Positions 2,594 through 30,783 of a DNA stretch of 40,828 nucleotides are shown here, piece by piece. A program made the position numbers and the translations under genes. Origin of the DNA: a virus; IMG/VR virus record IMGVR_UViG_3300046454_000245, positions 1-40,828 of that record; one strand, given 5' to 3'. How positions within the stretch are numbered: position 1 is the first letter of the stretch; each line of letters begins with the position of its first letter. Under the pieces are notes generated by a model. The model did no database searches. It had not been told where the DNA came from and saw only the letters and a list, made by a program, of their open reading frames with translations.

Positions 2594-3564
2594 TGGGACT
2601 CCGGAAGAAGATCAAGTCAGTAGCATCACAGGCCAGCGAGTACTTCGCCCCTCTCGGGGGCATGTTCGGTACGTTCTGGCTGGGTGACGTACGGAAGGTT
2701 AGCTTCAACGCGAAACCGAAGATAGTGGAGTACGTACCCACTCACACGTTCCCTCCGTGTACAAAGTGCGGGTACGTGTTCAAGTTGGGGGAGATCGGAC
2801 ACACGTGCCTTCCCCCTGTGACCCGGCAGGAGATGCTCGACTGGTGGAACGACTACTGGGACCAACATGAAGAGAGGATCATACCAATGGGTGATACGAC
2901 AAGACCGCAGCAGGACCCGAAGCCGGGCAAGACCTCGGTGACGGACCTCGTGCTTGCGGACATTCAGGAGCGCAGGCAGCAGGGTGTCGCCAAGTACGGC
3001 ACTGAGTTGAAGACTGAGAATGGGCGCGATCCACTCGTGGACCTCTATCAGGAACTCCTCGACGCGGTGATGTACGTGCGGCAGGCGATCGAGGAGCGGC
3101 AGACTCAGCCGACTCAGGAGGAGATCGTCCAGAAGCAGATACGCGAGGGTGGTGATCTGAAGGAGACACTGGAGCAGTTGGACCTGTTCGAGCCGAAGCC
3201 GATGTGGATCACGAATAAGAAAGTCCAGTACCACATACCCATTGTGGAGAGCGTCGCACAAGAGGCTCACCGCCTCGTGCTGGGTGACCGGGGTGCCGCG
3301 TACGGCCATCCGATCTTCGACATGACGCGGAGCGCGGACATGCTGACGGCGCTCCTCCGCAACAAGCTGAAGCCGGGTGCACGGCTGGAGGCCGAGGACA
3401 TCGGGCAGGCGATGATCTGCGTGAAGCAGTCCCGGCACCGGAACGCACCGAAGCGTGACAACAACACTGACACGGCGGGCTACGCTCTGACGCTGGAGAT
3501 GATCGCCGAGTGGCGTAGGGCCAACCCCGGGGTGGACCCGCGCGATGTCTTCCCTTCTGTGTGA
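2593..3564 (+). CDS. Zinc-knuckle / MazG-like / DUF6378 fusion protein
   Basis: A 323-aa protein that appears to be three modules. Residues 50-75 hold CxxC...HxC (C56, C59, H70, C72), a likely zinc site. Residues 115-170 look like an all-alpha MazG-type nucleotide pyrophosphohydrolase (KYGTELKTENGRDPLVDLYQELLDAVMY region). Residues 215-308 resemble the phage DUF6378 domain (AYGHP, then EDIGQAMICVKQSR, then DTAGYALTL). A possible role is housecleaning of non-canonical nucleotides next to the polymerase. An in-frame ATG at 2887 preceded by GAGAGG could give a shorter product lacking the zinc knuckle. It is translationally coupled to the polymerase stop. Domain names are from memory of the families; the enzymatic activity is inferred. 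Confidence 0.75.
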   Translation: MGLRKKIKSVASQASEYFAPLGGMFGTFWLGDVRKVSFNAKPKIVEYVPTHTFPPCTKCGYVFKLGEIGHTCLPPVTRQEMLDWWNDYWDQHEERIIPMGDTTRPQQDPKPGKTSVTDLVLADIQERRQQGVAKYGTELKTENGRDPLVDLYQELLDAVMYVRQAIEERQTQPTQEEIVQKQIREGGDLKETLEQLDLFEPKPMWITNKKVQYHIPIVESVAQEAHRLVLGDRGAAYGHPIFDMTRSADMLTALLRNKLKPGARLEAEDIGQAMICVKQSRHRNAPKRDNNTDTAGYALTLEMIAEWRRANPGVDPRDVFPSV

Positions 3565-4112: not shown

Positions 4113-4560
4113 TCTCGAACGGGACCTGATGCGGGACGAGGGCTACCGCTACTCGGCATATCGCGACAGCGTCGGTATCTGGACGATCGGTGTCGGACAT
4201 GAGTTGGGAGCGGGGACACTTCCCCGGATGTCCACGATCACGGAGGACGAGATCGCGGCTCTGCTCCGGTACGACATCGATCAGGCCACGAGTCGGGCGC
4301 GCTCGTACTTCCCGAACTGGGTGCTGATCGACCTGACTCGGCAGGACGCGCTCGTGAACATGGCCTTCAATCTCGGCAACCGGTTCGGCGCGTTCACCAA
4401 GATGCACGCGGCGATCAACCGAGCGATGAGCCACCTCGACAACGAGCAGGACTGGCTCGACGCGGGTCGTGAGATGCGGAACAGTGTATGGGCGAACCAA
4501 GTGGGACCGAGAGCCGTCCGGTTGCAACACATGATCGAGACGGGAGAGAGGATGTCATGA
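4102..4560 (+). CDS. Endolysin, T4-type lysozyme (GH24)
   Basis: A 152-aa muramidase cleaving peptidoglycan at the end of infection. The catalytic triad arrangement of T4 lysozyme is visible: E13 in RDEGYR, D22 in YRDS and T28 in WTIGVGH. The conserved QDALVNMAFNLG segment (T4 RxALINMVFQMG region) and the GREMRNSVWANQVGPRA C-terminal segment are also present. Length is close to that of T4 lysozyme (164 aa). There is no signal peptide, so a holin is needed. The only convincing holin gene lies on the opposite strand at 6,290-6,712, so the lysis functions are split between the two arms. The ribosome binding site is weak; coupling to the preceding gene is likely. Confidence 0.93.
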   Translation: MPTDLERDLMRDEGYRYSAYRDSVGIWTIGVGHELGAGTLPRMSTITEDEIAALLRYDIDQATSRARSYFPNWVLIDLTRQDALVNMAFNLGNRFGAFTKMHAAINRAMSHLDNEQDWLDAGREMRNSVWANQVGPRAVRLQHMIETGERMS

Positions 4561-4709
4561 CACCACGTGAAGCGGCAGTTCTGTTGTGCAATGCGGCGTA
4601 CTGGGAAGACACCAGTGGCCGGAAGACGATGAAGGAGCAGGCGGCCCTGTGGCAGAACCTGATTCAGGCATTCCAGATCGAGCGCGACGAGTTCGGGTTC
4701 TGGCGATGA
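4557..4709 (+). CDS. Small hypothetical protein after the lysozyme (50 aa)
   Basis: The start is ATG 4557, overlapping the lysozyme stop as ATGA, with GAGAGG five bases upstream. The product starts MTPREAAVLLCNAAYWEDTS and is a soluble-looking helical peptide with no membrane segment, so it is not a holin. The stop overlaps the next gene, again as ATGA. Function unknown. Confidence 0.65.
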   Translation: MTPREAAVLLCNAAYWEDTSGRKTMKEQAALWQNLIQAFQIERDEFGFWR

Positions 4710-4801
4710 GCATGGGACAGTTGATGCAGAATGCCGGAGCAGGCTACGCCGCCGCACTCGCTCTGATCCACGCCGCCGTCATGGTCTGGAAGCACCGCTG
4801 A
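4706..4801 (+). CDS. 31-aa predicted single-pass membrane peptide
   Basis: A very short gene with ATG 4706 overlapping the previous stop and a TGATG overlap with the exonuclease start. Residues about 11-27 (AGAGYAAALALIHAAVMVW) form one hydrophobic helix ending in KHR. Its position directly after the lysozyme cassette makes a lysis role (mini-holin or antiholin) conceivable, but the call rests only on position and hydrophobicity. Confidence 0.5.
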   Translation: MSMGQLMQNAGAGYAAALALIHAAVMVWKHR

Positions 4802-5424
4802 TGTACAACAAGGAAAAGCTGCTAGTCATCGATACCGAGACGGGTGGACTAGACCCGACGCAGCATTCGATCCTCTCCCTCGGCGCGGTCGTGTACGGCG
4901 TTGGTGGGCACATCGAGGATGAGTTGTACATCCAGATCGCCGAGCCCAACATCGTCGCGACACCCGCCGCCCTCAAGGTGAACGGGATCGACCTGACAAC
5001 GTGGGTGGGAGATGATCCGCTCCAAGCGGTGGTCTACCTGAAGAACTGGTTGCAGAAGAACTGGATTCGCAAACCTGTGGGACTTGCCGGTCACAATGTC
5101 GCGTCGTTTGACGTGGGCTTCGTCAAGCGGCTGTTCGCACTGGCGGGTGAGGACTACAGCAAGGTATTCCACTACAGGATGTTGGACACGATGACGCTGG
5201 CCTACGCACTCGACCTTGCTGGTCGGTTACCGGGCCTGCGCTCGCGAGGGCTGGACGCCTTGTGCCAGCGGTTCGGGATCGTCATCCGCAAGGGTGAGGC
5301 TCACAACGCGCTGGAGGATGCACGTGCCACCGCACAGTTGCTGACGCGACTGATGGACATGATCCGCGACCCGAGTCGTCAGGCTCCGGACGCTCCTGAA
5401 GCACCCATCGAAGAGAAGGAGTAA
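4801..5424 (+). CDS. DnaQ-like DEDDh 3'-5' exonuclease
   Basis: A 207-aa exonuclease of the DnaQ/RNase T superfamily. The full catalytic set is visible: D11 and E13 in VIDTETGG, D104 in GHNVASFD (98-104), and H168 and D173 in AHNALEDARAT. The C-terminal 18 residues are proline- and acid-rich. It could remove 3' ends of DNA or RNA. Because the same arm carries tRNA-like RNAs and a CCA-adding enzyme, an RNase T/D-like trimming role is possible, but a DNA repair role is equally so. The polymerase already has its own DEDDy proofreading domain. Confidence 0.88.
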   Translation: MYNKEKLLVIDTETGGLDPTQHSILSLGAVVYGVGGHIEDELYIQIAEPNIVATPAALKVNGIDLTTWVGDDPLQAVVYLKNWLQKNWIRKPVGLAGHNVASFDVGFVKRLFALAGEDYSKVFHYRMLDTMTLAYALDLAGRLPGLRSRGLDALCQRFGIVIRKGEAHNALEDARATAQLLTRLMDMIRDPSRQAPDAPEAPIEEKE

Positions 5425-5672: not shown

Positions 5673-5939
5673 ATGAAGTGGCCGAAGTACGAATGGTATT
5701 GGGAGAGTGCTCTGCCCTTCGAACTCAAGCCCCCGACTCAAGCGCGACAAATGGTACCCGGTGGCACGGCTGCCCCGAAGCCCGAGATTCTCCCCCCGGG
5801 CGTACCAACCAAGCCACAACAGCCTGAGACACCATCCATGGGTGAGATTCTACTCCGTGGCAACGGTGGCACAGACCTGATGTTCATGTGGCCGACGATG
5901 GACCTACCAACGACGAAGCCCAAGTTCGGTAGGTACTAG
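5673..5939 (+). CDS. Proline-rich hypothetical protein (88 aa)
   Basis: The start at ATG 5673 (MKWPKYEWYWE) is chosen because the upstream in-frame extension overlaps the preceding gene and has an arginine-rich, non-coding look. The ribosome binding site is weak (GGGG directly before the ATG). The product is tryptophan-rich at the N terminus, proline-rich in the middle (residues about 15-50) and ends in KFGRY. It is the last protein gene before the tRNA-like RNA. Function unknown. Confidence 0.5.
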   Translation: MKWPKYEWYWESALPFELKPPTQARQMVPGGTAAPKPEILPPGVPTKPQQPETPSMGEILLRGNGGTDLMFMWPTMDLPTTKPKFGRY

Positions 5940-5940
5940 A

Positions 5941-6056
5941 GCGAGCAGAGGTGTGGGTTCGAATCCCACCACTGGGTTGCTCCTGACTAGGGCTGATGGA
6001 GAGTGCCCTGATAGAGGACATCCCAGTGTAGTGTCAACTGGATAGCAACGCTGCCA
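5941..6056 (+). tRNA. Candidate circularly permuted tRNA (3' half before 5' half)
   Basis: The upstream part is a tRNA 3' half: GCAG (5945-5948), a 4-nt variable loop AGGT, a T stem GTGGG (5953-5957), T loop TTCGAAT (5958-5964), CCCAC (5965-5969) and acceptor CACTGGG (5970-5976). After a 45-base spacer comes a 5' half: CCCAGTG (6022-6028), perfectly complementary to the acceptor 3' strand, then TA (positions 8-9), G10, a canonical D-loop AACTGGATA (6036-6044), and CTGC (6051-6054), which pairs with GCAG. The spacer folds on itself (AGGGC 5989-5993 with GCCCT 6005-6009; TCCT with AGGA). No CCA is encoded. The D stem pairs poorly and the anticodon cannot be assigned, so it may be degenerate. 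It lies between the last rightward gene and the terminator. Confidence 0.55.
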
Positions 6057-6058
6057 GA

Positions 6059-6107
6059 AAAACGAAAGGCCCGGCCCCCAGCGATGGGAGTCGGGCCTTT
6101 TTCGTTT
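6059..6107. terminator. Bidirectional intrinsic terminator between convergent arms
   Basis: GGCCCG (6068-6073) pairs with CGGGCC (6092-6097), extended by AAA/TTT. The inner stem CCCA-GCGA-TGGG (6077-6088) is closed by a GNRA loop. It is flanked by AAACGAAA on the left and TTTTTCGTTT on the right, so a U-rich tail follows the hairpin on both strands. It separates the rightward operon and its tRNA-like RNA from the end of the leftward late operon. Confidence 0.9.
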
Positions 6108-6289: not shown

Positions 6290-6712
6290 CTAGTGATTAC
6301 CCTGCGCGCCCTGCACCTTCTCGTAGGTGCGGAGCCCGGCCATGCCAAGCATCGCCATCAGGATCGGTGAGAGAGTGGTCAGATCGACCACGGGTGCGAC
6401 GAACGGCTTGCCATGGAACACGCCGACGAGGGAGATGACGAGTGCGACTGCCGGGCTCGCGACGTACGCCATTGCGAGGCCCGCACCACAGACCCAGCCG
6501 ACAGCGGGTCGCCAGCCAGCGATGAGGAGGTTCGGGTTCGCGGCTTCGATGGCGTTGATGTTCGCCTGCTGCGCCATGGCCGCGAGGTCCCCACTCTGCT
6601 GCATCTGTGCAAGCTGCTGGATCGCCTCGGCCTTCGCCTTCGGGTCGGGGATGAACCGCTCGATGACGGCCTTGCCAAAGTCTAGGACACTACTGAGGGG
6701 GTCGAGAGCCAC
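6290..6712 (-). CDS. Holin, 3TM type (HOL3TM-like)
   Basis: A 140-aa protein starting at GTG 6712 after AGGAG. It has an amphipathic N-terminal half (residues 15-55), then NPNLLIAGWRPAVGWVCGAG, the signature stretch of the three-transmembrane holin family also found in gene transfer agents. Membrane segments lie at about 62-80, 86-102 and 113-128, with TYEK near the C terminus. It should permeabilise the inner membrane to release the lysozyme encoded on the opposite strand at 4,102-4,560. Stop TAG 6290-6292. Confidence 0.85.
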   Translation of the reverse strand: MALDPLSSVLDFGKAVIERFIPDPKAKAEAIQQLAQMQQSGDLAAMAQQANINAIEAANPNLLIAGWRPAVGWVCGAGLAMAYVASPAVALVISLVGVFHGKPFVAPVVDLTTLSPILMAMLGMAGLRTYEKVQGAQGNH

Positions 6713-6983: not shown

Positions 6984-9474
6984 TAGACGCTCCCTTGATC
7001 TTGACGTAGCGTTGGAGTTCCGTCGCTGCGTTCAAGAACTGCTGCCGTGTCTTCGCGACTTCGGTCGGTGACTTCTTCTGTCGATTGGCATTGCGGAAAG
7101 CCGCCCGCGCATCCTTCAGCGCGAACAGCCGCTCCTGCAATCCCGCATCCATGATGTTCTGGCCCTTGCGGTCCACGTTGGCGAAGCTCATGCCCGCCAG
7201 TTCCTCGACGGTGCGCTTCGCCCCTGCGGCCGGACCGTAGTCCTTCGTGTTCGTCCATCCCTCGTTGATGATGCGCGCCATCGGGATCGTGCGAATCAGC
7301 TTCTCGCCGAGGTCCCGGTGCTTGCCGAAGCGGTCCGTGTCGGACAGAGCGTCGAGCGCCAGCGAGGGCATCGTGATCATCGATCCGATGTTCCCCGCCA
7401 CGTTCTTCGCGGTCTCCCCGGCGAACTGTCCCGGCGTGTCCTGACCCGAGATGAGACGACCAACCCGCGCTGGGAGGTTGCCCAGTCCGGCCTGCTTCAT
7501 CATCTCCTCGGTGATCAGGTACCGGAAGCGGAGCACGACAGGCTTGCCCTGTCGGTCCACCATCGGCTTCGTCGGGTCTGCTGGGTTCGGCATGGTGATG
7601 TGCATCCCGGCTCTCTCGTAGTCGGGCAGTGCATCCTCTACCTGCTTGAACGCATCGTTCTGCTGATTCCACATCATGGCCGCGAACGGCACGCCGACGA
7701 CTGCGGCGAGCGTGCGCCCTCGCGAGCCGGGCGTCATGGCGAGGTTGGCGAAGCGACGGGTCGCGAGACCTGTGTACTTGATGAAGGGTGCGAGCAGCTT
7801 CCACATCGGGACGCGGGACGCCTCTGGCGCTCCGCCGCCGTAGTTGAGCGTGATCTCACGCCCGACCCGGCCGAACTCCTTGAGGTCACCTGTCCGCTCC
7901 AGTGCCTCTAGCCCAGCCGCGATACGCGGTGCAAGCTCGAAGCCCTGACGTAGATTGCCTGCGAACTCGGTGACGGGGTTGTGGTGAACGGTCCCCGGTG
8001 GGAGCAGATGCTCCAGTTCCGGTGCGATCGAGCCACCTCCCTTGACCTCGTTCATGAACGTCGAGCCCATCAGGCCCTGTTCACGAGCCATGGACATCAC
8101 GTCCATCAGGCCCTGCTTCGTGTCCACCATGTAGGGTTCACCCCTCACAGCGGCGTGCACGACGCCACGGGCAGTCTTCCCGTACCAGCGGAGGACGCCG
8201 AGCGGCTGTGCCTTCTCTCCCGGCATACCCATCAGGGCCGTCAGGAGGTCAGAGCCGATGTTGAGTGAGAGGTTCTTCGGGTTGTAGACGGTGAGCCACC
8301 GAGCCACACCCTTGCCTGCTTTCCGCCACACGTCCTCAGCCTGTGAGTCGCGCGGAGAGATGTTCTCCAGTGCGCCCTTCAGTGCCTTGGGGATCACGAA
8401 GCCACCGCTAGCGTACCTGTCCTTGTGGAGTGCGTCAGCCGCGCCGGACAGGAAGTCCATCTCTGGGGGTCGCTGCATGTAACCGATCTGTCCCTTGCCC
8501 GGATCGTACCGGGTGAGGTTCGCAGGGAGGGCCTCGCCGAACTTGAACTGGTCGGTGAGGTTGATGGTCTTGTCGGCCATCAGGTTCGTGAACAGTTGGC
8601 GATCGGCCTTCCACTTCAGGAATCGCCGGATCACGTCGTGCTCCAGAACGGCTAGGTTAGTTTCGCGGGCTCCGCCAGCTATCCCACGGGCGTTGACGGC
8701 AGAGAGACGACGCACAAGGGTCTCGTCCCCAGTTGCAGTAGCCAAACCACGCGCGATCCCCGTAAGGTGCCGCATGGGGGTATAGTCCTGCAACTCCCGC
8801 TCAGGCACGATGGCACCCTCGTCCACCATGCTCTGAAAGACTGTCTTCCACATCGCGGTGCGCTTCGCGAGCGCGTCCGTGATCTGGGGATCGGCGTCCA
8901 CATGGTCCTTCAACTGCTGCGTGTGGGCCGCCCACTTCTCGATCGGCACGTGCAGCACCTTGCCGTTGTCGCCGACCTTCATGATGCTGCTGTAGCCCTC
9001 GCGCTGGGCCTGTGCGAGGTCGTCAGCCGACACCGCGTAGTCCCACATCGCTGCTGCTTGCGTCACTGGGTCCCGGGTCAGTCCGTCGTACACAGGCGCG
9101 AGCGTCTTCGAGGCGAGGTAGTTCGACTCCTCGACGTTCTGCCGATGGTTGACAAGCTGGTCCGCGATGTCCCGGGGCATCCCCGGGTCCGACTGAACGA
9201 AGCCTCGCAGGGCTTGCGCCTTCTGTCGTACCCAGTCAGGGACCGTCTGGGGCATGACGTTCGTGGTGCGTGTCGCAGCTTCGAGTGTAGGGTCCCCAGC
9301 GAAGGGGACCCCCTCGTGCCGCTGGCCGACTGTGGACGGCATCTTGTTCCCTGCCTCGATGAGCGACGTAGGTGTACGATCCGCTGCTTCGGGGATGGCG
9401 GGCTTGAAGAGTGCCTCCCCTACCTCGGGTAGCACCTTACCGATCTGTTCGAGGAATGGACCGAAACCGGGCAC
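6952..9474 (-). CDS. Large virion/ejected protein with LPD38-like region
   Basis: 840 aa, starting at GTG 9474 after AGGAGG. It is helical, with a basic C terminus. The segment at about residues 520-600 (LEALERTGDLKEFGRVGREITLNYGGG..., then a hydrophobic stretch with MMWNQQ) resembles the LPD38 domain of large polyvalent proteins found in podoviruses and conjugative elements. In such phages these proteins are packaged and injected with the DNA. Together with the 1462-, 364- and 245-aa products it probably forms the internal virion or ejectosome set analogous to T7 gp14-gp16. No catalytic motif is seen. Confidence 0.65.
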   Translation of the reverse strand: MPGFGPFLEQIGKVLPEVGEALFKPAIPEAADRTPTSLIEAGNKMPSTVGQRHEGVPFAGDPTLEAATRTTNVMPQTVPDWVRQKAQALRGFVQSDPGMPRDIADQLVNHRQNVEESNYLASKTLAPVYDGLTRDPVTQAAAMWDYAVSADDLAQAQREGYSSIMKVGDNGKVLHVPIEKWAAHTQQLKDHVDADPQITDALAKRTAMWKTVFQSMVDEGAIVPERELQDYTPMRHLTGIARGLATATGDETLVRRLSAVNARGIAGGARETNLAVLEHDVIRRFLKWKADRQLFTNLMADKTINLTDQFKFGEALPANLTRYDPGKGQIGYMQRPPEMDFLSGAADALHKDRYASGGFVIPKALKGALENISPRDSQAEDVWRKAGKGVARWLTVYNPKNLSLNIGSDLLTALMGMPGEKAQPLGVLRWYGKTARGVVHAAVRGEPYMVDTKQGLMDVMSMAREQGLMGSTFMNEVKGGGSIAPELEHLLPPGTVHHNPVTEFAGNLRQGFELAPRIAAGLEALERTGDLKEFGRVGREITLNYGGGAPEASRVPMWKLLAPFIKYTGLATRRFANLAMTPGSRGRTLAAVVGVPFAAMMWNQQNDAFKQVEDALPDYERAGMHITMPNPADPTKPMVDRQGKPVVLRFRYLITEEMMKQAGLGNLPARVGRLISGQDTPGQFAGETAKNVAGNIGSMITMPSLALDALSDTDRFGKHRDLGEKLIRTIPMARIINEGWTNTKDYGPAAGAKRTVEELAGMSFANVDRKGQNIMDAGLQERLFALKDARAAFRNANRQKKSPTEVAKTRQQFLNAATELQRYVKIKGASNGASDTVTNE

Positions 9475-9483
9475 TGTGGCCTC

Positions 9484-12400
9484 CTACTCTGGTGATGTTG
9501 CTGTGAGATAGCGGTGGATGCCGCCGTCGTTGGTGCTGAACCAGTGAACCATCCGACCCTTCTGGTCGTTCACCTGACCCGCCCAGAACTCTTTGTCAGC
9601 GGTGGCTGCGCGGATGATCCCTCGCTGCGTCGGGGTGAGTTCCGCCGCTGCATCGAAACCAATCTGCTTGCCAGCCGCCTGCACACGGACGAAGCCCATG
9701 TTCAAGAGGGTCTGGACCTGAGCACCCGCACTCCCGTCTGTCCCAGCATAACCGGGGACAGCCGGGACTTTCATCGCACGAACGTGTCCGGCATGGGTCA
9801 TAGGAGACTCGATCAGTCGTCCTTCTGGGGACAGCCAGTAGCTGTTCATGAAGTTGTTGTTCGAGTTGTTCCGAAGAACCGAAGGAGGCACAACCTTGCC
9901 CCCGATCTGTAGCATCTTCGAGACCCACTTCGCTGACTCCGGCCCTGCGGGTTTCCCACGAGGACCAATGGCGACGAAGCCCGCTTGGCTGCGATACTGT
10001 TCGACCACATCGTGACCCCGAAGGATGTCCAATCCCTTCAGCTTCTCCAACATGGCGGGCATGTTCTTCCCACGCAGAGAACCGAACACCTGTGTCGTGT
10101 TGTACGACGGGGCGACCGGATCGATGTACTGGTGGATGATGCCGTCCTTACCGACGAACACCGCTCCAGCCACGCCTGCGTCAGTCATGGGCTTGAACTG
10201 ACCCGAGTTAATCAGTTCCTTCAGTTGCTCCGGCGTCTGCTTCGCGACCTCGGCGTACTTGCTGAGGGCGAAGGCCGGGTTGTCGATGGCGTACTGATGG
10301 ACCTCGGGATCGAACTGGAACTTCCCGTTCGCAGACTGCGTCGCCGGGAGGAACTTGGAGTAGCTCGATGGGTCATCCTTGGTCGGGTACCCCATCGCTT
10401 GAAGCTGCGCGTCAACCTCCGCGATCTTCCGCTGTGTGAACTGCGGCCCGTGTGTCGCTGGGTCGTAGCCGGTGGCGATGTCGCGGTACTGGCCGTTGGC
10501 GTCGATGTGGCCGACTTGGTACTGGCGACCCTCAAGGCCGAGCTTCTTTGCGAAGTCCTCGTTGCCCGGATGGTCTGGCAGATGGATGTTGAAGTCCATG
10601 TGCATCTCGGTCTGGTTCTCCCCGAGCCCCGCAGGCTGGAACAGTCCTGTGAAGGTGCCATGGTACTTGTCTGTGAGGTCACGGTATCGCTTGGCGTGCT
10701 CGATCACCTTCATCCCCGACGCCTCGCCGACCGGTACGACCTTGTGGTCGAGCGTCACGATGTAGCCGGGTCTGTCGTGCTTCGAGAAGTCAGTTGGGTT
10801 GAACGAGTAGCCACCGTCTGCACGCGCCCTGGCCACGCCCTCGGTGGCGTTCCGGATGCCTTGGAGGTTGACCTTGTTCTGCTCGACCCACTCCGAGGGA
10901 GTTAGGCCGTTCAGACGAGCCTTGAGCAGGTCCTCCATTGGGCGGAACGATCCGCCACGAGTGGCGACGCCTGTATGGTCTGCGACCTGTTCGTCGGCAA
11001 TCTTCTTGCCGACCCACAGAGCCGCCTGATACTGGCGGGGTGTGACACCAGCCTCCTGTGCGAGGTCCGTGATGATGTGCGAGTACAGCTTGTACGTCGA
11101 GTTCGACAGTGCCGCCTTGCCTGTAGCCTTGCCCGCGTCCTTGAAGCCGAGCACGCGCATGACGTGACGGTCAAGAGCCACGGCGTTCGGGTCACCTGTG
11201 AGTGCACCGAGGAAGCCCTGTGCCTTGCCGTCGCCGAAGACCTCTCCCCGGACCGCCTTGTACAGAGCGTTCACGTGGACATCGTTCAGGTGCCCTTCGA
11301 AGGGCAGGCCCAGTTTCCACTGGCCGTACGCCTTCATCATCTGTGTGGCGTTGGCGTCGGTCGTGTTGCCAAGGGAGGTGGCACTGATGAAGCGCGCGAC
11401 CATCTCGGCATCGTCGCCGAAGTGCTCGTTCAGCCATCCCCACGTCTTGTCATACCAGTCCTTGCCGATCTTGCCGGACTCGAACATGGCCTTGATCGCG
11501 GTGATCTGTTTCACTGTGGGACGGTCGTTCGCCACGAGTTTCAGGAGAAGCGCCTTGCCCTGCTCGATTGCCTTCTTCACCAGCGGCTTGACCCAGTCGC
11601 CGTGTGCCGCGACGAGGGCGTCCGTGATCTTCTGTGTCGAGCGCAGGCCCAGTCGGAACATCTTCGCCGCCGCCATGATCGCGAGATCACGTGCGTTGGT
11701 CCCGTTGGGATTGATACCTGCGTGCATCTCTGGGTTGAGTGCTGCCTCGATGCGCCGAGCCATGAGCCGCTGCTTCGCCGCGTCTTCGATGGCACCGAGG
11801 TGCTCGTCGAGCCGTGTGAACAGCGTAGCCTTCTGCGGGATGAGGGGCTTGCCCTCAGTCACGTTGCCAGCCGCGATCCGGGCGCGGTCGTCAGTCAGAC
11901 CATTGATGCGGTCCGCAACTCCCTCACCCTGCTCCTTCAGTGCCGACACCACCTCGGGTGTGGGCTTCGCGAGCGGGACTGGCTCACGCCGCATCTCCGC
12001 CCAGCCGTCACCCTCGTCCACGATCGTGAAGCCATGGTTCTTGTAGAACTCGATCAGCTTGTCGAGCGGGATGCGACCCTTGCCGTTCCCTCGCGGGAGT
12101 GGGAGTGCACTCAGGGACATCGGGACCTGATGGTCATCTGCGACCTTAGTTAGCTTCTTCAGGACAGCGGCCCCTGCACCCTTCTCGTCGCCGACGTTCT
12201 CGATGTAGTTCAGTTCGACTGTGCCCTTGCCGTGAAGCTCCGGGTCAGCCACACTCGTGCGATAGACCACGTCGCCGAGAGAGTTCCAGTTCGGCGTGCC
12301 GGTGGGCTGGCCGAGGGACTGCATGGCGAATGAGGCATCTGCTGCGGTCTTCTCGTTGGCCTCTGCTGCACCGGGCGCGTGGTACTTCGCCACCTTCTGC

Positions 12401-13872
12401 GTGGTCGTCGTCGCACCCTGCCGCGTCGGGAGGCCGGGCTGCACCTCTGTGAACGGCACACCCTCCGTGATCTTCGCGTTGGGCGGCTGTGTGGGAGCAG
12501 GCATCGGACGAGGAGCCGGTTCCAGTGGTTGTGGTTCGCTGGGAGGCCCGGGCTGCACACCCCCCGGCTGTGAAAGCACCGGAGGCTGGTTGAGTTGCTG
12601 TGTCTCAGGCTGCGGCTCGATGCCCTGTGGGGTCAGCGGCTGCTGGGCCATTGCGGATGGTGCACCGAGCCCGGGCTCGAAGCCCTCGGGCGGTGCCTGC
12701 GGGACAGCCTGCCCTGCCGCGAACGGCGAGGGTGTCTGGTCCGGGGGCAACGGAGTGCCGATCGCTTGGGGCGGGACACCTCCGGTCGGTTCGAGGTCCG
12801 TGGACAGCGGGAGGCGCGCTCCAACTGGGGGCACACCTTCGGCCACGGGGGGCAGTGCGATCTCGGGATAGAGGCCGGAGTTCGACCCGATCACGTTCGC
12901 AGCCGACATCTCTCGGTACTGTGCGATCTTCTTAGCCATCACCGCGACGATGCCGGGGTCGGCAGCTTCGGGTGTGGTGTTCATCAGCTTGGCGACGATC
13001 TGAGCCGCGAGCACGCTGTCCGGCACCTTGTCCTTCGCGGCCTGTGCGAGGTCCGCGCTGAACCGTTCACCGACGAACGATGGATGGAACGACTTGTCGA
13101 ACGCATCGACAGCAGCCGCAGCCGTCGCAGCCCTCGCGGCCGCTTGAGCCGCCGTCTCCCGCCCGAGCACCTTCGCGCCTCCGGCGATCGCACCCGTGAG
13201 CACACCGCCCACGAGGGCACCACCGGCTGCGTTGACGAGACCTTCAGCGGCCGCGCCATGGACGATCGAGCCGAAAATCTGGCCCGCGCCCTTTCCTTCC
13301 TGTGCCGCCTGCGTCCCCTCGCTGACACTGCCCTTCACGGCACCGTAGGCACCGCCGAAGACTGCACCCTCGGCCGCGCCCATGGCTGCCTTTCCAGCGA
13401 CAGACTTGAGTGCACCCTGTGTGAGGACCTTGGCAGCCGCACCCTCGACACCCTCTTTGATCGCGCCACCGAATGGAAGCGTGCCGTACGTGCCAGCCGC
13501 CTCACCCGTGGCGATCGCGCCCTGCTTCAGGGATTCCTTCTTGACGCCCTCCAGTGCATCGGCGTAGTCCTTCCGGGCCTGCTGCTCCTCGGGGGTGCCT
13601 GACGTGTCCGCCCGGAGAGCGGCGATCTGCTTGCCCTGCTGGGACGCGAGGCCGAACTCATGCCCCGCCTTGATTGGCGACAGCGCACTCTCGACGACGC
13701 CTCGGACCAACGCGCCCGGCAGCTTCGCTGCGGCCTTCGCCGCACCGACAACACGGTCCCCGAGTGTCGGGGTCGTCTGCTCAGGCGTGAAGTCGTCCTC
13801 TGCTACGAAGTCATCCCCCGGGGGTGCGGAGGTCGCAGGGGTTTCGGGAGTGAAGTCATCTTGAGTGGGCAT
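9484..13872 (-). CDS. Giant polyvalent virion protein (1462 aa)
   Basis: The longest gene; ATG 13872 after GAGG. Regions in order: an acidic N-terminal tail; an Ala/Gly-rich hydrophobic helical part (about 115-250); a Pro/Gln-rich linker (about 370-510); a GNAT acetyltransferase-like segment (about 525-630, with GAGAAVLKKLTKVADD and LIEFYKNHGF); a domain resembling DUF7178/HhH-type phage proteins (about 805-960, WGWLNEHFGDDAEM... to TPRQYQAALWVGKKIAD); and a long C-terminal beta/alpha region. It is probably packaged and injected, delivering enzymatic modules to the host. The start of the operon-proximal neighbour 13881-14975 suggests a joint virion role. Domain assignments come from motif recall only. 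Confidence 0.65.
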   Translation of the reverse strand: MPTQDDFTPETPATSAPPGDDFVAEDDFTPEQTTPTLGDRVVGAAKAAAKLPGALVRGVVESALSPIKAGHEFGLASQQGKQIAALRADTSGTPEEQQARKDYADALEGVKKESLKQGAIATGEAAGTYGTLPFGGAIKEGVEGAAAKVLTQGALKSVAGKAAMGAAEGAVFGGAYGAVKGSVSEGTQAAQEGKGAGQIFGSIVHGAAAEGLVNAAGGALVGGVLTGAIAGGAKVLGRETAAQAAARAATAAAAVDAFDKSFHPSFVGERFSADLAQAAKDKVPDSVLAAQIVAKLMNTTPEAADPGIVAVMAKKIAQYREMSAANVIGSNSGLYPEIALPPVAEGVPPVGARLPLSTDLEPTGGVPPQAIGTPLPPDQTPSPFAAGQAVPQAPPEGFEPGLGAPSAMAQQPLTPQGIEPQPETQQLNQPPVLSQPGGVQPGPPSEPQPLEPAPRPMPAPTQPPNAKITEGVPFTEVQPGLPTRQGATTTTQKVAKYHAPGAAEANEKTAADASFAMQSLGQPTGTPNWNSLGDVVYRTSVADPELHGKGTVELNYIENVGDEKGAGAAVLKKLTKVADDHQVPMSLSALPLPRGNGKGRIPLDKLIEFYKNHGFTIVDEGDGWAEMRREPVPLAKPTPEVVSALKEQGEGVADRINGLTDDRARIAAGNVTEGKPLIPQKATLFTRLDEHLGAIEDAAKQRLMARRIEAALNPEMHAGINPNGTNARDLAIMAAAKMFRLGLRSTQKITDALVAAHGDWVKPLVKKAIEQGKALLLKLVANDRPTVKQITAIKAMFESGKIGKDWYDKTWGWLNEHFGDDAEMVARFISATSLGNTTDANATQMMKAYGQWKLGLPFEGHLNDVHVNALYKAVRGEVFGDGKAQGFLGALTGDPNAVALDRHVMRVLGFKDAGKATGKAALSNSTYKLYSHIITDLAQEAGVTPRQYQAALWVGKKIADEQVADHTGVATRGGSFRPMEDLLKARLNGLTPSEWVEQNKVNLQGIRNATEGVARARADGGYSFNPTDFSKHDRPGYIVTLDHKVVPVGEASGMKVIEHAKRYRDLTDKYHGTFTGLFQPAGLGENQTEMHMDFNIHLPDHPGNEDFAKKLGLEGRQYQVGHIDANGQYRDIATGYDPATHGPQFTQRKIAEVDAQLQAMGYPTKDDPSSYSKFLPATQSANGKFQFDPEVHQYAIDNPAFALSKYAEVAKQTPEQLKELINSGQFKPMTDAGVAGAVFVGKDGIIHQYIDPVAPSYNTTQVFGSLRGKNMPAMLEKLKGLDILRGHDVVEQYRSQAGFVAIGPRGKPAGPESAKWVSKMLQIGGKVVPPSVLRNNSNNNFMNSYWLSPEGRLIESPMTHAGHVRAMKVPAVPGYAGTDGSAGAQVQTLLNMGFVRVQAAGKQIGFDAAAELTPTQRGIIRAATADKEFWAGQVNDQKGRMVHWFSTNDGGIHRYLTATSPE

Positions 13873-14976: not shown

Positions 14977-15714
14977 TTAGGCCCCCTGCGGTTGTGGTGT
15001 GAAAGCGGTGACGAAGCGGTTCCCGAGTGAGCCCATCAGACGCCGGGACTTCTGAAGGAAACCGTACTGCGGATTGTACTGCGGGAGGCGGAAGCCACCC
15101 ATCGAGCCGCCGATCACAGGCTGGCCGAGTGACACAGCTTTGGGCTGGAAGTTTCTGATGGAGCCCGCTGCACCGACGTTCTGGACTGGCGCGCTCGTCG
15201 AGTTCTGGCCGGGTTTCGCCGCAGACAGCGCGATGCCCGCAGCGTTGCCGACCTTCTGCCACTGGAGCGCGCCCTGCGTCGGCGCACCGTTGTTGTAGAA
15301 GTCCTGCATGTAGGCGTTCTTCCGCTCGTTCACGATGTCCTGTGCGACCGGGAGAACTGAGGCGTATATATTCGCCTTGGCTTGTGTGTTCAGTGTGTTG
15401 GCCGCGCCCTCGCCAGCGCCGGTAGCGAAGATGCCCGTGCCGGATGCCGACCCACTCATCGGAGTGAGCCCGGCCGCAGCCGCCTGACCCTGCGTCTGGT
15501 TCGCGAACTGCTGGCCTGTCTCCGACGCCTGCCGCTGGATCGCCTGACCCTGTGGGCTGTTGACCATGCGTGCGAACAGGTCCTGTGCCTCCTGCGTCAC
15601 GGCGTGCGCCCCGTAGTTGGCTCTGAGCCACTCAGGGTCGATGTGCTTGCGTTGCCCGCCCCGGATTGCCCCAGCGATGGAGGCGGCGGCGAGAATGGCA
15701 GTTACTGGGTCCAT
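14977..15714 (-). CDS. Virion-associated protein (245 aa), possible small ejection protein
   Basis: Starts MDPVTAILAAASIAGAIRGGQ after AAGGAG. The short hydrophobic N terminus followed by a Gln/Ala/Gly-rich body (residues 45-110) is typical of small internal virion proteins encoded between fibres and large ejection proteins in podoviruses (compare T7 gp14). The C-terminal part is Pro/Gly/Gln-rich. The stop lies two bases from the next start. Assignment rests on position and composition. Confidence 0.5.
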   Translation of the reverse strand: MDPVTAILAAASIAGAIRGGQRKHIDPEWLRANYGAHAVTQEAQDLFARMVNSPQGQAIQRQASETGQQFANQTQGQAAAAGLTPMSGSASGTGIFATGAGEGAANTLNTQAKANIYASVLPVAQDIVNERKNAYMQDFYNNGAPTQGALQWQKVGNAAGIALSAAKPGQNSTSAPVQNVGAAGSIRNFQPKAVSLGQPVIGGSMGGFRLPQYNPQYGFLQKSRRLMGSLGNRFVTAFTPQPQGA

Positions 15715-28237: not shown

Positions 28238-30205
28238 CTACGCAGCCCCCTGAATCGGAGGCAACGTATTCTGGATCGAACCCGGACCACCCGTACCCGG
28301 AGCGCCCGGGAGGGGCAGAGCAGCCGCTCCGTTCTGGACGATCTGGCCGGAGGTCGGGACGTTCTGAAGACCGCCCTGCCCACCGGTTGCTTGGTTGATG
28401 AGGCTGCTGAAGTTCGCTCCACCCTGCCCGTTGAAGATTTCGTTCATGTTCGGGACCTCGAATGCGCGGAAGATCGAGCGCCAGAAGTTGGTCGCGTTGA
28501 TAGCGCCAACCACGGACTGTCCGACTGGCGTGCCGAGGGCGGTGAGCAACTGCATCAGGTTGTTCTGCATGGTCGTCTTCGACAGAGCCATCGACGCCCC
28601 GATTGCGCGGGCGTTGTAGCTCATCAGCATATCCTCGTCCGTGACGATCTCTCGCGTGCCGCTGATCGGGTTGCCCGACACAGGATCGATACGAGCGCCA
28701 TCACCGAGGATTTTCACCTCTGCGGGCGTGTCGAGGAACTGCTTGTCCATGGCGACCATCATGTTCGCGTGCGGTTCGAGGGACATCTCCTCGTAGATGC
28801 GCGCTTCGAGTCCGAGCCGGTTGCCCGCAGCTTCGCGGCGACCGATGAACTCGCGGGCGGTCTGGCGGCTGTCGCCACCGAGGCCCTGCACGGCGTCATC
28901 GACGATGCCCGTGCCCTGCTGTGCGTACTGGTTGACCATCGCGACACGTGCATCGGCGACGGTGAGACCGGCGAGGTCCTTCTGCATCGCGGCCACCACT
29001 TGGGCGGGGTTGCCGTCCACCGGGATGAACCGGCCGGGGCGCGCGTACAGGGACTTCGTGTTGAGGTTGGCACCGCGATCGTAGAACCACATCGGATCGA
29101 CCAGCAAGTCGGCCGAGTCGAGAGACTGGTTCAGGTAGCGGTTGCCGATGATCTGGAGCTTCTCGATGATCTCACCCTTGCCCGGCGCGTAGAAGTAGTG
29201 CGGGTCAGGTGTGGGAGAGAACGACGTGAAGGGAATCTTCTTGTGCCAGAACGGATTCGGTTCGTTGCGGAGCATGTAGCGCCGGTTCGCAATCGTGATC
29301 ACACGCTTGAGGTCACCATCGGGGGACAACTCGTGCGGGACCTCGCCCCAGAACTCAAGGATTTCGATCGGGCGCGCGTACTTGTCCATCCAGCGGATGG
29401 ACTCGTCGTCCATGCCCGCACGGGTGGCGAAGCGGCGGATCATCGACTGCTGGTCCGCGATCTGGGAGTTGACTCCGCCCTCGCGTGCGATGCGCGAGAC
29501 CTCGGCAGTGTTGTAAATGCCCTGCTTCGCCATGTAGAGCACGTCGTCCCAGTCGAGGAAGAATCGGCGCACGACCCACTTCATGTCACGCAGGCGCTTG
29601 ACGCCGGGCTGCGGGAAGAAGTCGAGGAGGTCGATGTTCTCAGCGACGGGGCCGTCGTACGTGATGACGTTGCCCTTCTTGATGGAGCGGATGACCTTGC
29701 CTGACATCGGCATCCGGTCGATCGACTCCATGATCTGGTACTCCTCCTTGCGACACCAGCCGTGCTGCTGGATCGAGACGCCATAGAGGTCGGCGGACAC
29801 GATGTTGTCCACTTCCTTCATGAAGGCGTCGTCGTCCTTCATCTGCGCGGCGATCAGGCCCTCCCACTTGCGACACACGGGCTCATCGTCAGGGCCGTAG
29901 CCCACGAAGCCCATGATCGGATAGGTGGAGAGGGAGGTCGCAGCCTTGCGGGCCGCGTCCGACCAGATGGCGGAGTAGATGAGGGGGATGTGCGCGTTGT
30001 TCTTGTGCGGGTGGAAGCGGCCAGTCCATGTGCCGCGCCAGAGGTCGTACAGCCGGGGGAACCGCTGACGCACGCCCGTGAAGTACATCTCCGACAGCTT
30101 CATGCGACTCACGACGACATCGACCATCTGCTGACGATAGGGTTCATCCCCAATCGCGCGGACGATCTCGATGGCTCCGTGAGAAGTCAGAGGGTCGTTC
30201 ATCAT
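28238..30205 (-). CDS. Portal protein
   Basis: 655 aa from ATG 30205, eight bases after GGAG; ATG 30229 would lie further inside the exonuclease gene and lacks a site. It forms the dodecameric DNA channel. Recognisable features: an N-terminal helix, RFPRLYDLWRGTWTGRFHPHK, a wing/clip region with NANIPLIYS-like (HIPLIYSAIW) and YDGPVAENIDLLDFFPQPG, PNPFWHKKIPFTSFSPTPDPHYFYAPGKGE, and a long C-terminal helical stretch with RREAAGNRLGLEARIYEEM. The C-terminal 60 residues are Gly/Pro-rich. This pattern is typical of the SU10/P22-related podovirus portal group. Position before the scaffold fits. Confidence 0.85.
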   Translation of the reverse strand: MMNDPLTSHGAIEIVRAIGDEPYRQQMVDVVVSRMKLSEMYFTGVRQRFPRLYDLWRGTWTGRFHPHKNNAHIPLIYSAIWSDAARKAATSLSTYPIMGFVGYGPDDEPVCRKWEGLIAAQMKDDDAFMKEVDNIVSADLYGVSIQQHGWCRKEEYQIMESIDRMPMSGKVIRSIKKGNVITYDGPVAENIDLLDFFPQPGVKRLRDMKWVVRRFFLDWDDVLYMAKQGIYNTAEVSRIAREGGVNSQIADQQSMIRRFATRAGMDDESIRWMDKYARPIEILEFWGEVPHELSPDGDLKRVITIANRRYMLRNEPNPFWHKKIPFTSFSPTPDPHYFYAPGKGEIIEKLQIIGNRYLNQSLDSADLLVDPMWFYDRGANLNTKSLYARPGRFIPVDGNPAQVVAAMQKDLAGLTVADARVAMVNQYAQQGTGIVDDAVQGLGGDSRQTAREFIGRREAAGNRLGLEARIYEEMSLEPHANMMVAMDKQFLDTPAEVKILGDGARIDPVSGNPISGTREIVTDEDMLMSYNARAIGASMALSKTTMQNNLMQLLTALGTPVGQSVVGAINATNFWRSIFRAFEVPNMNEIFNGQGGANFSSLINQATGGQGGLQNVPTSGQIVQNGAAALPLPGAPGTGGPGSIQNTLPPIQGAA

Positions 30206-30783
30206 TGCGGTAGCTCCAAGGGCAGCCAACCGTGCCCGTTGATGTGCAGACCCCCGTGCTCGCAGATGAAGCGGTAGAGGTCATGTGTGAGGTGTACGTC
30301 GTCCATGCAGTAGTTGAAGAGGTCACCGAGGCGACCTTCTGCGAGGAGTTGCTCCGCGTGGGAGCCGTGTTCGATCTTGCCCCGCCCGATGTTCTTCCGG
30401 CAGAGCGTGTCGAGGCGGAGGTCGCCGATTGTGGTCGTGATCCCCCGGAGCGCGCACGCCTTCTTGGCTTCGAGGTAGATGTCGTAGTGGTTCTTCAGCA
30501 CGAGCTTCCGGCCGAGGAGCCCTTCCATGCATGGGACATCGAAGGTAGAGCCGGTGTGGGTGACCACCAGATCGACGGACTCAAGATGCTTGGCCGCCGT
30601 CGCGAGGGCCTTGCGTGTGTCGTCGTAGGCGTACATCCATGCCAACTTGGTGTCATAGATGCAGAGGGCACTGATCCCACCCTCGCCGCGCCGGAGTCGC
30701 TCCCACCCAGCTTGTTCATCCGCAGGACAGAGTGTCTTGGGGCCTTTGCGGGTTTCGATGTCGAAGAAGGCGATGCGGGGCAT
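30202..30783 (-). CDS. DEDDy exonuclease / RNase H-like nuclease in the structural operon
   Basis: A 193-aa nuclease with a complete DEDDy set: D8 and E10 in FFDIET, D82 in TGSTFDV, and Y158 with D162 in YCMDDVHLTHDLY. It resembles the predicted RNase H-like YprB/DnaQ group rather than the DEDDh exonuclease at 4,801. The start ATG 30783 follows AAAGGG, and its end overlaps the portal start. A nuclease between collar and portal genes is unusual; roles in degrading host nucleic acid, trimming DNA for packaging or RNA turnover are all possible. Confidence 0.8.
   Translation of the reverse strand: MPRIAFFDIETRKGPKTLCPADEQAGWERLRRGEGGISALCIYDTKLAWMYAYDDTRKALATAAKHLESVDLVVTHTGSTFDVPCMEGLLGRKLVLKNHYDIYLEAKKACALRGITTTIGDLRLDTLCRKNIGRGKIEHGSHAEQLLAEGRLGDLFNYCMDDVHLTHDLYRFICEHGGLHINGHGWLPLELPQ

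Follow-up and report, generated by a model that had tools for sequence, protein, structure and literature searches.

In bacterial Y RNAs the 5′ and 3′ ends pair into a long basal stem to which Ro60 binds, and the tRNA-like end is reported to bind PNPase (PMC8394870). For the tRNA-like module of YrlA RNAs, the same article cites Chen et al. 2014 and the crystal structure PDB 6CU1 of Wang et al. 2018. The idea that this module acts as a competitive inhibitor has already been published (PMC7790460), and jumbo phages carrying TROVE (Ro60) genes have been discussed as carriers of RNA repair (PMC7824862). Another point of comparison is provided by the circularly permuted tRNA genes of algae and Thermofilum pendens, which, like the phage element described here, place the 3′ half first and a spacer between the acceptor strands (Soma 2014, PMC3978253). 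The review lists such genes just from algae and one archaeon (PMC3978253), and an open-literature search found no paper on permuted tRNAs in phages.

The stretch of DNA analyzed here, referred to as the window, is a 40,828-base IMG/VR virus record with genes for a DNA polymerase, a T7-type portal, a capsid protein and a terminase. It belongs to a soil phage that resembles a podovirus. A DNA search for a close isolated relative returned no match, and in the search for isolated relatives the polymerase matches with the best coverage reach about 24% identity. A Pfam scan of ten right-end ORFs gave nothing useful, and two separate DNA-polymerase-exonuclease-like genes are present, one in the rightward operon (4801–5424) and one among the leftward structural genes (30202–30783). 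The rightward DNA-polymerase operon ends, according to the ORF list, with a small plus-strand gene of 88 aa (5673–5939, ATG at 5673), whose coding stretch is conserved in contigs L004 and L016. The tRNA-like element begins 4 nt past the stop codon of this gene, and an intrinsic terminator hairpin of the operon, predicted by folding at about 6062–6105 on the plus strand, begins 6 nt after the element. A terminator follows in the same arrangement in L006 and G005 (=L210). The sequence-only reading had likewise placed the element at the end of the rightward operon, just before a terminator.

Between 5944 and 6055 on the plus strand, the parts of a tRNA follow one another in permuted order: closing (anticodon) stem, variable loop, T arm, acceptor stem and D arm. 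The 3′ strand of the closing stem (AGCAG, 5944–5948) forms four of five pairs with the 5′ strand (CTGCC, 6051–6055), and both strands covary between lineages. A 4-nt variable region (AGGT, 5949–5952), equal in length across family members, leads into the T arm GTGGG-TTCGAAT-CCCAC (5953–5969), which is recognized from the sequence and from model alignments. The acceptor stem pairs CACTGGG (5970–5976) with CCCAGTG (6022–6028) at all seven positions and also covaries. Its strands are separated by a 45-nt distal acceptor arm, or spacer (5977–6021), which in minimum-free-energy folds contains TCCT/AGGA and a GGGC/GCCC hairpin. Model alignments then place TA (positions 8-9) and the D arm GTGT-CAACTGGATA-GC(A)AC, with one bulged A, at 6029–6049, and a single G separates the D arm from CTGCC. 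The sequence-only reading had picked out the TTCGAAT T arm and 7-nt acceptor strand upstream of a matching 5′ half, the perfect 7-bp acceptor stem, the spacer hairpin, T8-A9-G10 followed by the AACTGGATA D-loop, and the CTGC/GCAG pairing within the anticodon stem; all of these are present. The mismatches it had noted in the D stem come down to the bulged A, beside which there are four good pairs. The observation of a permuted tRNA-like element is thus confirmed.

Among IMG/VR relatives of the polymerase, the arrangement recurs at the equivalent place, 3–5 kb downstream of the polymerase gene, and five phage lineages have the same fold (the window, G002/L006, G007/L012, G005/L210 and G028/L211). 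L006 and L007, whose polymerase is 81% identical to the window's, have a perfect closing stem (GGTAG/CTACC), a D stem GTGT/GCAC and a hairpin in the D-loop. L009 and L012, at 51% polymerase identity to the window, differ in sequence and keep intact stems (GAGGG/CCCTC, GAGCG/CGCTC and CGGTCG/CGACCG). In an alignment of three lineages, with the spacer and D-loop trimmed and the bulged A of the window copy omitted, 8 of 21 pairs changed on both sides, a count matched by none of 500 shuffles and compared with 0–2 in slid controls. The compensatory changes that the earlier reading had proposed to look for in related phages therefore exist. With a covariance model built from this alignment (R1), a search of whole contigs brought in two more members, G005 (46.4 bits) and G028 (35.9 bits). 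Two further helices show compensatory change between L006 and G028: the D-loop hairpin (CCCCAGC/GCTGGGG vs CCCCGGT/GCCGGGG) and the distal acceptor helix (TCC/GGA in L006, CCC/GGG in G028).

The surroundings of the element vary across the family. Its closing stem starts 5 nt past the CCA of a tRNA-Met in G005, G007 and G028, and a tRNA-Phe begins 6 nt downstream of it in G028. The acceptor strands lie 15–45 nt apart in four of the five members; in G005 the acceptor has just 5 bp, closed by a 5-nt loop. A further candidate with a different D stem (GCTC/GAGC) sits inside a 28-tRNA cluster in G041, and in G045, which is more distantly related, complementary sequences flank a tRNA-like element. 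This distribution is patchy, and an intact copy is missing from the close relatives L004/L005 (polymerase 88% identical) and L016 (holin 72% identical), which indicates that the element is dispensable. L004 has, at about 13630–13700, a 5′-half-like stretch with a hairpin (TAGTAGCTCAAGG...GGAAGTAGCACGC) and no T arm, a probable decayed copy. RtcB is encoded in 8 of 18 related contigs and an ATP-dependent RNA ligase in 9 of 18; in G007 and G028, RtcB and the tRNA-like RNA share a phage genome, with gene and RNA non-adjacent.

Other structured RNAs occur in the same group of phages. Several encode tRNA-His-like genes that ARAGORN misses, with a T loop of TGCGACT or similar instead of TTCRANT (L226, about 15282–15358; L213, about 6313–6391; L215; L011, about 13570–13645; L219, about 10206–10283), and the anticodon is GTG in L226, L213 and L011. 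A conserved, structured noncoding segment of about 100 nt (GGCGAG...GGGCGAACC...GCGCGAGC...TAGAGCCCGACCA) lies upstream of tRNAs in L210 (about 3360–3462) and L228 (about 4465–4570). Near the same operon end, L232 (15280–15360) and L214 (about 8445–8525) contain a long closing helix with two tandem T arms, possibly related tRNA mimics.

A permuted-pattern scan of IMG/VR and GTDB genomes yielded many tandem tRNA pairs together with a second class of elements without an overlapping tRNA. In this second class a short loop caps the acceptor stem (UUCG for L302 and L251, GCAA for L238, 3–6 nt in many others). A TROVE (Ro60) gene is found close to the L302 element, a neighboring element there matches the YrlA family RF02553 at 67 bits, and seven phage contigs bearing second-class elements contain TROVE genes. 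Fourteen such phage and bacterial elements (set A6), none from the window's family, were used to build an independent covariance model, R2, in which all seven acceptor pairs changed on both sides. Because the elements were gathered with a pattern from the family's D arm (GTRGTGT...GGANAGCA), likeness in the D arm is partly selected, T stem and acceptor pairing were not preselected, and on this footing R2 scores the window copy at 39.7 bits, G007 at 37.5, L006 at 34.3, G005 at 49.8 and G028 at 31.9. The match to the window copy has an E value of 9e-11 in this record, and the next match in the window reaches 14.1 bits. The element is far beyond chance, and the permuted cloverleaf passes the covariance test set by the earlier reading.

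Further tRNA mimics and Y-RNA-like hairpins occur elsewhere. A jumbo-phage-size contig without TROVE (L342, 325,854 nt) has at 1251–1319 a mimic between two tRNAs, without a basal stem and with a UUCG-closed acceptor, a second orphan case. The isolated actinobacterium Actinomadura flavalba (L320) has two Y-RNA-like tRNA mimics (291–363 and 436–505) in a genome that gives no TROVE match. On the minus strand of L238, a TROVE-carrying phage contig, four Y-RNA-like hairpins lie at about 600–130, two of them with the tRNA-like module and two without it.

The RF02553 consensus has its parts in the same order as the window element; what looked like a permuted tRNA therefore has the build of the tRNA-like module found in bacterial Y RNAs. 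The two agree in the order and sizes of their parts, with a closing stem, a variable region of 4 nt, a T arm, an acceptor arm, UA and a D arm. The YrlA module has a loop-closed acceptor arm, no anticodon and no free 3′ end, and the phage element appears alike if, as seems likely, its acceptor arm remains uncut. Modification by tRNA enzymes (TruB, DusA) is a further trait of YrlA-type Y RNAs. Differences lie in the longer acceptor arm of four of the five phage members (15–45 nt between strands), the hairpin within the D-loop of L006 and G028, and the placement of several phage copies in tRNA clusters. Unlike YrlA, the phage element comes without a Ro-binding basal stem and without a Ro60 gene. 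Folds with 70-nt flanks gave no consistent flanking helix, and hence no basal stem or Ro motif, in the five members, whereas most Y-like elements folded in the same way have 16–42 flanking pairs; the many flanking pairs of L012 and L211 are with neighboring tRNA genes. TROVE (PF05731) is absent from the window and from 43 related phage records, several of them longer than 60 kb, and it is found in phages with fuller Y RNAs; the G005 record looks complete, as its polymerase gene wraps its ends. Against RF02553, the window scores 10.3 bits and the L006 contig 14.3, where the Rfam cut-off is 69 bits and Y RNAs in TROVE-gene genomes likewise fall below it (67.2 and 46.6 bits). With no basal stem, no TROVE and 10.3 bits, the window element is not filed as a Y RNA.

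Taken together, the element probably resembles a tRNA without working as one. With somewhat better than even confidence, we interpret it as an orphan RNA that mimics tRNA independently of Ro and is built like the YrlA module, most likely a decoy or competitive inhibitor of tRNA-binding enzymes.

The same architecture would also suit a full Y RNA that works with the host's Ro60 (Rsr) through a short or divergent basal stem and whose tRNA-like end either draws in PNPase or blocks it. Other contigs do contain phage Y RNAs that have basal stems, and the G045 element has complementary flanks. However, no conserved basal stem or Ro motif is found in the five members, the phage group lacks a TROVE gene, and in G028 the tRNA genes 5–6 nt away on both sides leave no room for a basal stem, which makes this alternative doubtful. 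A comparably modest chance attaches to a cis-acting role at the operon mRNA's 3′ end, where the structure would serve as an RNase P processing site or, beside the terminator, as a block to 3′ exonucleases. The element does directly precede a terminator in the window, L006 and G005, yet further tRNA-like or tRNA genes follow it in G007 and G028, and a terminator hairpin by itself already protects an mRNA end.

A true circularly permuted tRNA gene, the sequence-only reading's proposal, fares less well. On this view, to which we assign little probability, a phage RNA ligase (RtcB or ATP-dependent) would close the precursor into a ring at the anticodon loop, and RNase P and 3′ processing enzymes would then excise the spacer to leave a normal working tRNA. 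The covarying permuted cloverleaf, the RtcB and RNA ligase genes of the relatives, and a G-CCA immediately after the acceptor strand in G028 speak for such a gene. ARAGORN also calls the window element a tRNA when the halves are rejoined as a ring, the rejoining test that the earlier reading had suggested, but known Y-RNA modules read as rings give the same calls, so the test lends no support to a tRNA gene. The anticodon, already described as unreadable, is inconsistent among the phage copies: in the window it shifts with the arbitrary junction (aaa, aag, gag), and residues 32-33 read AG, TC, GT, CG, CA and CA, with U33 in one of six members. Moreover, G1:G72 is unable to pair in L006, G007 and G028, and L006 and G028 have a hairpin in the D-loop. 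Permuted tRNA genes are also marked by a bulge-helix-bulge at the junction and a splicing endonuclease, and we know of no bacterial enzyme of that kind. A 7-bp acceptor together with a usable spacer would not fit in G005, although for a permuted tRNA of T. pendens a spacer of 1 nt has been reported (PMC3978253). In contrast to the algal and T. pendens genes, the phage element has no readable anticodon or conserved anticodon loop, and the Y-RNA modules that it resembles have a closed acceptor arm. A permuted tRNA gene is thus unlikely, and the earlier interpretation is partly supported: the permuted cloverleaf and its covariation stand, and a gene of the algal or archaeal type is not supported, as no anticodon loop is conserved here.

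Still less is to be said for a decaying remnant, now functionless, of a tandem tRNA pair that lost its outer halves. Tandem tRNA genes, present in many tRNA clusters, can produce the same inner arrangement, in the window copy the D stem is bulged and one pair is mismatched, and L004 retains just a 5′-half-like stretch. Against this, the closing, T and acceptor stems have undergone compensatory changes among phages whose polymerases are only about 51% identical, which shows selection for the fold, and such decay is very improbable.

Several further identities are rejected or disfavored. An ordinary linear tRNA fails because ARAGORN finds none in the window, and tandem ordinary tRNAs fail for the window because the outer halves are missing, although they explain L162, L163 and many pattern matches. 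The two-piece (permuted) tmRNAs of alpha-proteobacteria and others resemble it in having the T arm and 3′ acceptor strand first, ahead of the 5′ acceptor strand and D region. The phage element differs in having a full D stem and a closing stem, and its 5′ half leads straight into a terminator rather than into a tag reading frame; a permuted tmRNA is rejected, the Rfam tmRNA model matching the T arm only (14.3 bits). An attP site in a tRNA gene seems unlikely: no integrase appears among the 25 window ORFs scanned against PHROGs, and the matching, covarying 5′ half argues against it. Upstream of the element in L006, no group I intron or other Rfam family rises above threshold, and the "tRNA-OTHER" of Gordonia phage OneUp belongs to an ordinary tRNA cluster.

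The favored interpretation, an orphan tRNA mimic, suggests the following sequence of events. The RNA would have lost the Ro-binding basal stem or never possessed it, and would be made as the 3′-terminal part of the polymerase operon transcript; several relatives have it within a short cluster of tRNAs, and processing of these neighbors may release it. Its acceptor arm would stay uncut, and, lacking both an anticodon and a free acceptor end, the RNA would be seen as a tRNA elbow and be neither charged nor decoded. By analogy and from gene neighborhood, we infer that it may serve as a decoy, first against host tRNA-cleaving defense (anticodon) nucleases, and it could act alongside the phages' spare tRNAs and RNA ligases. 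Like the rsr-yrlBA-rtcBA RNA repair operons (PMC7790460), G007 and G028 combine a tRNA-like RNA with RtcB in one genome; unlike them, they lack rsr, and the RNA is not adjacent to the RtcB gene.

For predictions of permuted tRNAs in bacteria and phages, Y RNAs and tandem tRNA genes should be checked first. Should the orphan module prove to function without Ro60, tRNA mimicry would be a separable property of Y RNAs, one that phages would use in tRNA clusters beside RNA-repair genes, and the role of the tRNA-like end of YrlA would become directly testable. A possible RNA decoy would then join the means by which phages withstand tRNA-cleaving defenses.
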